From Halorubrum sp. CBA1229 (lineage in GTDB: Archaea > Halobacteriota > Halobacteria > Halobacteriales > Haloferacaceae), in assembly GCF_003721435.2 (NCBI RefSeq), contig NZ_CP054585.1, positions 124,001-188,000 on the forward strand: DNA of 64,000 nt, written 5' to 3'. The notes under the pieces are model-generated. The model was not told where the DNA came from. It did no database searches and worked only from the letters and a program-made list of their open reading frames with translations. The position numbers and the translations under genes were made by a program. Positions 22,634 through 54,777 of the stretch are shown here, in pieces (position 1 is the stretch's first letter; every line of letters begins with the position of its first letter).

Positions 22634-22800
22634 TCTCACTTCGTTCGAGAAATGCGCCGGTCGGGACTCCCGCGAGCGAACGGCGTGAGCGAGCGAGTGT
22701 ACGGGCGGCGCACTCCCTGCAGTCGTGCGCCGCCCGGGATTTGAACCGGAATCAGACGTGCTCGCTCGCTGCGCGCGACTGATAGGGTTCAAATCCCGCT
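22634..22800 (-). repeat. tRNA-Gly 3'-end echo unit (downstream of tRNA-Gly)
   Basis: Downstream of tRNA-Gly on its own strand lies a second, partial copy of the tRNA 3' end with its flank. Positions 22725-22749 repeat the T-arm and acceptor 3' strand of the tRNA (22892 onward) with one substitution and one indel in 25 bases. CGGGACTCCCGCGAGCG is repeated exactly at 22662-22678 and 22837-22853. The period is about 167-175 bp. The unit lacks the D- and anticodon arms, so it is not a tRNA gene. Confidence 0.8.
22702..22736. repeat. Hairpin including the echoed acceptor strand
   Basis: 12-bp perfect inverted repeat (CGGGCGGCGCAC, 22702-22713; GTGCGCCGCCCG, 22725-22736) around an 11-nt loop TCCCTGCAGTC. 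Confidence 0.9.
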
Positions 22801-22868
22801 CTGTATTTTCCGAGCGAAGCGAGAAAAATCGCCGGCCGGGACTCCCGCGAGCGCAGCGAGCGGGAGGT

Positions 22869-22903
22869 CGGCCGGCGCACGACCGTAGGGAGTGCGCCGG
22901 CCG
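22869..22903. repeat. Hairpin overlapping the 3' end of tRNA-Gly
   Basis: 12-bp perfect inverted repeat (22869-22880 and 22892-22903) around an 11-nt loop. The right arm is the acceptor 3' strand of the tRNA plus flanking bases, so the downstream trailer can pair with the tRNA's own 3' end before processing. Confidence 0.9.
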
Positions 22904-22963
22904 GGATTTGAACCCGGGCCATGAGCTTGGAAGGCTCAGGTCCTACCACTAGACCACCGGCGC
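22893..22963 (-). tRNA. tRNA-Gly (anticodon UCC)
   Basis: On the minus strand a complete 71-nt cloverleaf can be drawn. The acceptor GCGCCGG pairs with CCGGCGC, with discriminator A. The D-arm is GTCT/GGAC. The anticodon stem TGAGC/GCTCA carries loop CTTCCAA (anticodon TCC). The variable loop is TGGC. The T-arm is CCGGG-TTCAAAT-CCCGG. No intron and no encoded CCA. A TATA-like GTTTATCAG lies about 50 bp upstream. Confidence 0.97.
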
Positions 22964-54248: not shown

Positions 54249-54333
54249 GCGCGGGTTGCCGAGCCAGGCCAAAGGCGTAGCGCTTAGGACGCTATCCCGT
54301 AGGGGTCCGCCGGTTCGAATCCGGTCCCGCGCA
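54249..54333 (+). tRNA. tRNA-Leu (anticodon UAG), no intron
   Basis: Complete class II cloverleaf of 85 nt. The acceptor GCGCGGG pairs with CCCGCGC, with discriminator A. The D-arm is GCCG...GGC. The anticodon stem TAGCG/CGCTA carries loop CTTAGGA, giving anticodon TAG. A long variable arm TCCCGTAGGGGTCC follows. The T-arm is GCCGG-TTCGAAT-CCGGT (one G-U pair). No CCA is encoded. It is followed by two echoes of its 3' end. Confidence 0.97.
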
Positions 54334-54421
54334 TGAGCGAACGAAGTGAGCGAAGAGCAGGAGCGGATTTGAGCCCAGCGAGAAAGGCGCAGCGAACGGA
54401 GTGAGCGAGCATTTCTCGCCT

Positions 54422-54445
54422 CGGTTCGAATCCGGTCCCGCGCAT
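54422..54445 (+). repeat. First exact 24-nt copy of the tRNA-Leu 3' end
   Basis: The 24 bases from the T-arm through the discriminator and one base beyond (54311-54334 in the tRNA) recur without mismatch, exactly 111 bp downstream. Confidence 0.97.
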
Positions 54446-54496
54446 ACTGCCTCGAACAAACGTGAGAGCCATGTATGCGCGGAGGATTCGAATCCT

Positions 54497-54530
54497 ACCA
54501 GACGCGCGCAGCGAAGCGAGCACGTCTGGT
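54497..54530 (+). repeat. Hairpin of the tRNA echo element (Leu locus)
   Basis: ACCAGACG (54497-54504) and CGTCTGGT (54523-54530) form a perfect 8-bp stem around an 18-nt loop CGCGCAGCGAAGCGAGCA. It lies between an inverted T-arm-like GGATTCGAATCC (54484-54495) and the second echo. The same core occurs on the minus strand at 22751-22783 beside tRNA-Gly. Confidence 0.85.
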
Positions 54531-54532
54531 TT

Positions 54533-54556
54533 CGGTTCGAATCCGGTCCCGCGCAT
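54533..54556 (+). repeat. Second exact 24-nt copy of the tRNA-Leu 3' end
   Basis: Identical to 54311-54334 and 54422-54445, again at exactly 111 bp. Each echo is separated from the previous copy by 87 unrelated-looking bases that keep the same length. Confidence 0.97.
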
Positions 54557-54777
54557 GCCTCTCCGAGCACTTCGCGAGGAGAGGCATCGCGACTGAGAGA
54601 CGGACGTGGCTGCCACGTACTTGCGTTTTGTTCCCAAGATCACTCACAATCGAAGGAGAAAAACGAGTCAGTCCCACGTTCCGAACCTCGCCGCCGGGCG
54701 CGCCGGATCGCTCCGAGAGCCCTCGTCCGATGACGGGCGTTCGAGCGGATACTTGATGTGTGAAGCGGCGGTCTCGC

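Follow-up and report, generated by a model that had tools for sequence, protein, structure and literature searches.

Tandem gene-free hairpin units with tRNA-matched ends behind haloarchaeal tRNA genes

Tandem units that contain no gene, and whose ends match the tRNA gene that they follow, are spread over the haloarchaea. They follow a large proportion of the sampled tRNA genes, and they turn over between related species. The 3' ends of tRNA genes are well-known targets of integration, mainly for gene-carrying elements; the arrays described here suggest a so far undescribed form of tRNA-targeted integration, at the T-loop. We see about an even chance that these non-coding hairpin cassettes accumulate in tandem behind tRNA genes by site-specific recombination at that loop.

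Arrays behind tRNA-Leu and tRNA-Gly in the window

The window is a stretch of 64,000 nucleotides from Halorubrum sp. CBA1229 (contig NZ_CP054585.1, positions 124,001 to 188,000), and positions given below without further reference are those of the window. A unit consists, in this order, of tRNA bases 54-73, a module A, an inverted T-arm, a hairpin module B and then bases 54-73 again (hereafter, the echo); its typical length is about 70-130 bp. In an array, the units follow one another between the T-loop of the tRNA and a last echo. Module A is often a hairpin and mostly specific to one tRNA, and module B is formed by hairpins common to different tRNAs.

The tRNA-Leu(TAG) gene (54249..54333, plus strand; detected by ARAGORN, and by Rfam RF00005 with 48.4 bits), whose positions 54-73, from the T-loop to the 3' end, are found at 54314-54333, has two units downstream, both on the plus strand apart from their inverted T-arms. 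The first of these, which the first-pass annotation had missed and which lies exactly 111 bp upstream of the second, begins with a module A of type A1 (TGAGCGAACGAAGTGAGCGAAGAGCAGGAGC; 54334..54364) that recurs at orthologous Leu loci of other species, followed by an inverted T-arm (GGATTTGAGCC; 54365..54375, minus strand) and by module B (CAGCGAGAAAGG-core-CATTTCTCGCCTC) plus GG (54376..54424, with the core at 54388-54411), which folds with the flanking T-sites. Echo 1 extends from 54423 to 54444, and 54425..54444 is an exact copy of tRNA positions 54-73. In the second unit, a module A (TACTGCCTCGAAC..GCGCGGA; 54445..54483) of a type also present in L120, L125, L126 and L129 precedes an inverted T-arm (GGATTCGAATCC; 54484..54495, minus strand) and a module B (TACCAGACG-core-CGTCTGGTTTCGG; 54496..54535) whose stem covaries across species; the stem strands are ACCAGACG (54497-54504) and CGTCTGGT (54523-54530), around CGCGCAGCGAAGCGAGCA (54505-54522). 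Echo 2 (54534-54555) again includes an exact copy of tRNA positions 54-73 (54536..54555). The two echoes thus start 111 bp apart, at 54423 and 54534, the same spacing as from the gene to the first echo, and the intervening hairpins differ. Behind echo 2 a lone module A (TGCCTCTCCGAGCACTTCGCGAGGAGAGGCATCGCGA; 54556..54592, plus strand), of the type seen in L115, L117 and L119 and with neither an inverted T nor a module B behind it, is likely to be the remnant of a third unit.

The array of tRNA-Gly(TCC) (22892..22963, minus strand; positions 54-73 at 22912-22893) lies wholly on the minus strand and runs, after the gene, through a short echo from position 60, a full unit and a second short echo; the two short echoes were absent from the first-pass annotation. 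The first short unit (22829..22880), of the class 2 defined below, is formed by an inverted acceptor, GTGCGCCGGCCG (22880-22869), a hairpin and the echo TCCCGGCCGGCGA (22841-22829), which starts from position 60. In the full unit, the inverted T-arm GGGATTTGAACCC (22785..22797) is followed by module B (TATCAGTCG-core-CGTCTGATTCCGG; 22746..22784), which includes ATCAGTCG (22783-22776), CGCGCAGCGAGCGAGCA (22775-22759) and CGTCTGAT (22758-22751), and by an echo (22747-22726) in which 22745-22726 matches tRNA-Gly positions 54-73 with one mismatch. The second short unit (22653..22713), also of class 2, repeats the order of inverted acceptor (22713-22702), hairpin and echo (TCCCGACCGGCGCA; 22666-22653).

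The first-pass annotation had assigned the Leu and Gly echo regions to one family of elements on the ground of a shared hairpin core with ends matched to the local tRNA. The strings that it quoted from both loci are present where it had placed them, and the two regions do belong to one family, in which a near-constant hairpin core stands between two copies of the local tRNA's T-arm, one inverted and one direct. The core pattern was found three times in the window, against 0.07 expected, and T-arm strings of the form GGTTCRAATCC (at most one mismatch) 12 times, against 2.1 expected. At the three full units of the window the inverted T-arm, the hairpin and the following T-arm were folded, as DNA and as RNA on the tRNA strand, into one long hairpin. 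The z-scores were -3.1, -3.8 and -5.9 for DNA (Leu unit 1, Leu unit 2 and Gly, respectively), with none of 200 shuffles folding as well, and -4.6, -5.9 and -6.0 for RNA.

Hairpin tips of the haloarchaea in general (e.g., at window positions 54507-54522 and 54388-54411) have sequences like GCGAAGC and ACGGAGT between GA/GA steps and can be read as mirror repeats (GAGCGAAGCGAG). Tandem sheared G.A pairs together with a GNA loop make a very stable DNA fold, and the tips could form tandem sheared G.A pairs closed by such a loop.

Repeat edges coincide with the edges of the T-loop

The edges of the repeats were read from 248 tRNA loci. Echoes of class 1 (n = 227) open with position 54, where the T-loop begins: their identity to the gene is 16, 49 and 39% at positions 49-51, which is background, and 96-100% at positions 54-73, the latter figure partly by construction since these echoes were found via positions 61-73, which does not apply to the edges. 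The agreement with the gene at positions 52-53 mainly reflects the GG that is usual there. In class 2 (n = 97) the echo opens at 60/61, where the T-loop ends and the 3' stem begins. At the other end, the match to the gene breaks off at position 73, the mature 3' end, with an identity of about 40% from +2 on. Positions 54 and 60 are thus the two edges of the 7-nt T-loop. A better conservation of the T-loop than of the acceptor part of the echo appeared with one filter but not with a neutral one, and was discarded.

Module B is diverse, with 142 distinct principal stems in 213 unique modules, and yet particular mismatches are kept, above all the T.T mismatch in AGTCG/CGTCT, whose context is preserved in 40 + 6 cases. 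Stems that vary while particular mismatches persist are the pattern of selection on a folded strand, and argue against the mere mutational correction of a palindrome.

Arrays are widespread in the haloarchaea

With an echo defined as a copy of the last 20 bases of a tRNA, with no or one mismatch, at most 330 bp downstream, about 18 of the roughly 46 chromosomal tRNAs covered in the genome of the window are followed by an echo of their own tail: Ala-GGC, Asp, Gly-CCC, Gly-TCC, His, Leu-CAA, Leu-TAA (two), Leu-TAG (two), Lys-TTT, Phe, Pro-TGG, three Ser, Tyr, Val-TAC and Val-CAC. Upstream of most of these echoes lie an inverted T-arm and a hairpin. Pairs of mutually inverted T-loops, 30-60 bases apart, occur at nine places in the genome, seven of which are units (reversed control, 0), and the same pattern was found in 36 of 39 relatives, representing 14 of 17 genera (control, 0); in other classes of the phylum, a related T-loop pattern was seen at chance level only.

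The genome-wide search also bore on the proposal that copies of the core lie next to tRNA genes. This held for the core with a T-site. The bare core could not be kept as a marker, or as the definition, of the family: many tRNA units have other hairpins, and 14 of 20 loose matches to the core in the genome are not at tRNAs, whereas six are, at five tRNAs. Of these 14, seven fall in a structured repeat of about 300 bp that is dispersed over the genome and three in another repeat, and four are apparent chance matches in coding sequence. The dispersed repeat has at least seven copies (L009, L010, L012, L015, L016, L017 and L018; C1 near 722.7, 852.6, 1449.3, 1723.1, 1734.8, 2245.0 and 2250.9 kb), each behind a TTTATAA-like box; it is heavily structured when folded as RNA, shares the AGTCGCAGCCCG..CGGAACGTCT hairpin with the tRNA units and gave no Rfam match in the two copies tested (L009 and L012).

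Run against all contigs of GTDB, which cover about 85,000 prokaryotic species, the exact core pattern TTYGAAYCCTRYCAGTCGCGCGCAGCG matched at 71 loci, all haloarchaeal by name except for one contig binned as a hypersaline Bacteroidetes MAG, and this hairpin family spans at least 13 tRNA types. A tRNA on the same strand lies at most 1.2 kb upstream of 60 of 74 core sites, against 7% of random positions; for seven of the 14 sites without one, the fetched DNA starts too close upstream to allow a judgement. Another sample, of 96 pattern sites, had 86 located at most 900 bp downstream of a same-strand tRNA, and in nearly all of these 86 the purine-rich strand is the tRNA strand.

Three other origins were considered and set aside. 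For a viral or phage carrier there was no true match: phages gave none, 14 exact 16-mer matches in viral_contigs, which lacked a T-site in the context shown, are apparently due to chance, and a second hairpin pattern gave none. As to a known RNA family, only tRNA scored above the cut-off of Rfam 15 in the loci tested (L001, L003, L009, L012 and L119). CRISPR or spacer insertion was rejected because what is inserted belongs to one definite family of hairpins, whose ends match the tRNA.

The T-arm copies follow the host tRNA

That the outer ends of the element follow the adjacent tRNA, as the first-pass annotation had proposed from two loci, was confirmed in the independent set of 71 loci found through the core. 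The loop of the echo is that of the tRNA in 50 of 50 cases, and the inverted copy fits the variable base 57 of the tRNA in 57 of 59, for which 5000 permutations gave a mean of 32 and a maximum of 45. In a first sample, from the genus Halorubrum, the inverted loop was identical to that of the gene in 51 of 71 cases (permutation mean, 28.8). Across 43 Halobacteriales genomes, the loop base is identical in both T-arm copies at 265 of 297 sites, against 161 expected if the copies were independent; the 297 sites come from 23 genera, but their sequences are related and a p-value is not to be taken literally. Together, these sequence comparisons show that the T-arm copies fit the host tRNA and that the hairpin moves between tRNAs. 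They do not distinguish between the two mechanisms suggested in the first-pass annotation, a mobile unit that copies its target and one that the adjacent tRNA gene repeatedly corrects; some arrays show a third pattern, in which the new loop base is in the gene and the ancestral one in the echo downstream.

Turnover of units between related species

At tRNA-Leu(TAG) orthologues in 30 genomes of the genus, the arrays range from zero to three or more units, and the A and B module types reassort. Arrays differ even between loci with both flanks conserved, and the junctions are at T-sites. L104, with one unit, and L116, with three, have their flanks and a decayed last echo in common; L115, L121 and L127 share both flanks and have different arrays; and in L128 module A is joined via GGATTCGAATCC to the flank, at a point where L126 has two units. 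In L121 the loop of the gene reads TTCAAAT and that of the first echo TTCGAAT, with the base of most relatives, as expected if an incoming unit had replaced the 3' end of the gene and displaced the original downstream. The sequences show that units are gained, lost and exchanged between species, a turnover that is visible in such comparisons, from which its rate and chemistry cannot be read.

On a plasmid of Haloarcula halophila (NZ_CP119561), a 69-bp unit, made up of a small hairpin, a partial inverted T-site and a type I hairpin, splits a tRNA-Cys(GCA) gene exactly at 53|54 (L176:2927-3070). When the flanks are joined, a regular tRNA-Cys is recognized by ARAGORN. The 3' end is not restored, and the split gene is presumably inactive unless its RNA loses the insert. 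The same plasmid carries a cluster of tRNA genes (L176, 237156-243214; 23 genes in the fetched stretch) followed by a gene for a TROVE-domain (Ro60-like) protein; the sequence downstream of a tRNA cluster in the genome of the window (C1:314.0-316.1 kb) looks similar to that of the plasmid cluster, and pieces of such clusters are found on other haloarchaeal plasmids.

Possible origin of the arrays

In the recombination reading, a recombinase, most simply one of the tyrosine type, would cross over at the T-loop, with the 7-bp loop as the overlap and the T-stems as the arms. The tRNA 3' end brought by the incoming unit would restore the gene, the original 3' end would be displaced to the far side and become the echo, and the starts of the echoes, at 54 and 60, would mark the two sides of the 7-bp overlap. 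For tyrosine recombinases, the overlap is often a 7-bp tRNA loop, with the stems serving as arms; the T stem-loop is among the attB regions known in archaea, and the IntSSV1 cuts border a tRNA loop (PMC8371274). Nine tyrosine recombinase domains (PF00589) above the Pfam cut-off are encoded in the genome, none of them in the window. Counting against recombination, the arrays have no linked recombinase gene, neither a free circular nor a viral form turned up, and the two inverted T-sites around module A would permit its inversion, yet modules hardly ever occur inverted. Larger islands at the same tRNAs have longer tRNA repeats, from the anticodon arm on, so that the integrases known here may also cross over elsewhere; for this reason, the att sites of large islands were rejected as the origin of the echoes. 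Such longer repeats, which begin at the anticodon arm and continue up to the 3' end, are present on the same contig, tens of kb from the gene, in several genomes (G039, G006, G003, G044, G021 and G047 for tRNA-Leu; G015, G010, G007 and G011 for tRNA-Gly), as expected for larger integrated islands.

By analogy with the attC sites of integrons, and with less assurance, the substrate of such a recombinase may be a folded single strand. Folding of the inverted T, hairpin B and following T would recreate a single double-stranded T-arm that has a spacer left unpaired and a tip that varies, and would account for the match of the inverted copy to the T-loop, the covariation of the stem and the fixed polarity. 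Ordinary double-stranded attP sites do not account for an inverted copy with a covarying, polar hairpin, which would fit a folded site of the attC type. We regard the folded single-strand site as a lead only, since its boxes are not those of attC and the units have no gene. The evidence on the strand is mixed as well, because mismatches in the T-sites, read on the tRNA strand, are C.A in 24 cases and T.G in 3, whereas those in module B stems, in unique contexts, are G.T in 7 cases and A.C in 3.

The 24 to 3 excess of C.A over T.G is opposite to what RNA pairing would leave, and so bears on an RNA role, in which the arrays would be transcribed with the tRNA as structured 3' trailers or small RNAs, with hairpins selected as RNA and with variation from exchange with other tRNA loci, by ordinary homologous recombination and by gene conversion. 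We regard this as unlikely. Strong hairpin covariation with conserved mismatches, a polarity fixed relative to the tRNA and the presence of the AGTCGC..CGTCT motif in the dispersed, heavily folding element after TTTATAA-like boxes all speak for it, as do T-runs, which are slightly commoner after the last echo (38 of 172) than directly after the gene (22 of 172), although this difference is weak. An RNA role would, however, leave unexplained the repeat edges at T-loop positions 54 and 60; the presence of units is erratic, from none to three or more at one tRNA in related species; and the echoes lack a matching 5' strand of the T-stem, so that no tRNA-like fold results.

T-arms are near-palindromic in all life, and template switching at such a sequence during replication, by slippage and quasi-palindrome correction, could make and equalize copies with no dedicated enzyme, an origin that we find quite unlikely. 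It would agree with the alternation of inverted and direct copies, each copied from the local tRNA, with near-identical hairpins that change in concert at both ends, and with the Gly inverted copy, which in L155 and L159 reaches as far as the discriminator base (TGCGCCAAGGGGTTTGAACCC). Yet it offers no source for hairpin B, which belongs to a family shared by the haloarchaeal core loci and their tRNA types; it leaves conserved stem mismatches (T.T, C.A and G.A) uncorrected; and within the phylum the above-chance pattern is confined to haloarchaea.

Non-autonomous elements of the IS200/IS605 (PATE-like) kind, inserted as single-stranded hairpin DNA beside a T-loop target oligonucleotide, are improbable: haloarchaea are rich in PATEs, which have near-terminal palindromes and no transposase gene, and the fixed polarity and the hairpins at both unit ends (A and B) fit single-strand transposition, but PATEs are described as being without target duplication (PMC3119063), and copies that vary with a host tRNA are not one of their features. 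The present units each have a direct repeat of a 20-bp tRNA tail, and their T-arm copies do vary in this way.

An RNA role and template switching are the main alternatives to recombination at the T-loop, and neither covers, all at once, the repeat edges, the sharing of hairpins and the turnover. A more specific form of the recombination reading, a haloarchaeal cassette-array system anchored in tRNA genes, with a recombinase that acts on a folded strand recreating the T-arm of one tRNA, is possible but doubtful. If true, the identity of bases between cassette and tRNA would set the target, and the system would be a second, independent and archaeal-native analogue of the integron principle.

Comparison with known systems

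The arrays resemble the integrative elements of tRNA genes (SSV1, pT26-2 and SNJ2 types) in that the insertion is flanked by directly repeated copies of the tRNA 3' end and the gene is restored (PMC8371274), and in that orthologous loci exist with and without the insertion, here with conserved flanks. Unlike those elements, the haloarchaeal units are about 100 bp long, too short to encode an integrase, stand in tandem at numerous tRNAs of a genome, and include an inverted copy of the T-arm as well as a hairpin that covaries. They raise the question of which enzyme, if any, moves DNA that contains just its own recombination site.

Tandem repeats that contain a copy of the tRNA 3' end reportedly also lie behind the Escherichia coli tyrT gene (tyrT/rtT), at one locus and with longer units; we know of no inverted T-arm with a covarying hairpin there. 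The PATEs of Haloquadratum are likewise short, palindromic, transposase-less and haloarchaeal, and the units share their palindromes near both ends, modules A and B often being hairpins; tRNA-tail repeats of the present kind are not described in the accessible portion of that report (PMC3119063). In Haloferax gibbonsii LR2-5, 11 partial tRNAs, several of them directly beside a full copy, are probably the same phenomenon, but no unit structure, hairpin, inverted T-arm or turnover is described for them in the part of the genome report available (PMC7921747). No description of such arrays was found in the main texts of the open-licence papers searched, and an earlier account elsewhere is possible.

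The arrays share with integron attC arrays the tandem cassettes at one anchor, recombination regions that are imperfect palindromes in which the end boxes are inverted, a spacer is unpaired and the tip varies, and the fixed polarity (PMC8946536); a report on archaeal integrons does not mention haloarchaea (PMC9668308). The three full units of the window fold in this attC-like manner, with an imperfect palindrome, an unpaired spacer and a variable tip. In contrast to integron cassettes, those of haloarchaea have no gene, the interval between T-sites being too short for one, and their anchor is a tRNA T-loop instead of attI. The end boxes of attC are RYYYAAC/GTTRRRY, and those of the haloarchaeal units are TTYGAAC/GTTCRAA, in which the base after GTT is C and not a purine. 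The arrays constitute a natural, base-resolved record of recombination at the T-loop and a marker for strain typing, and, if a folded single strand is the substrate, they would be an archaeal parallel to the recombination of attC sites in integrons.
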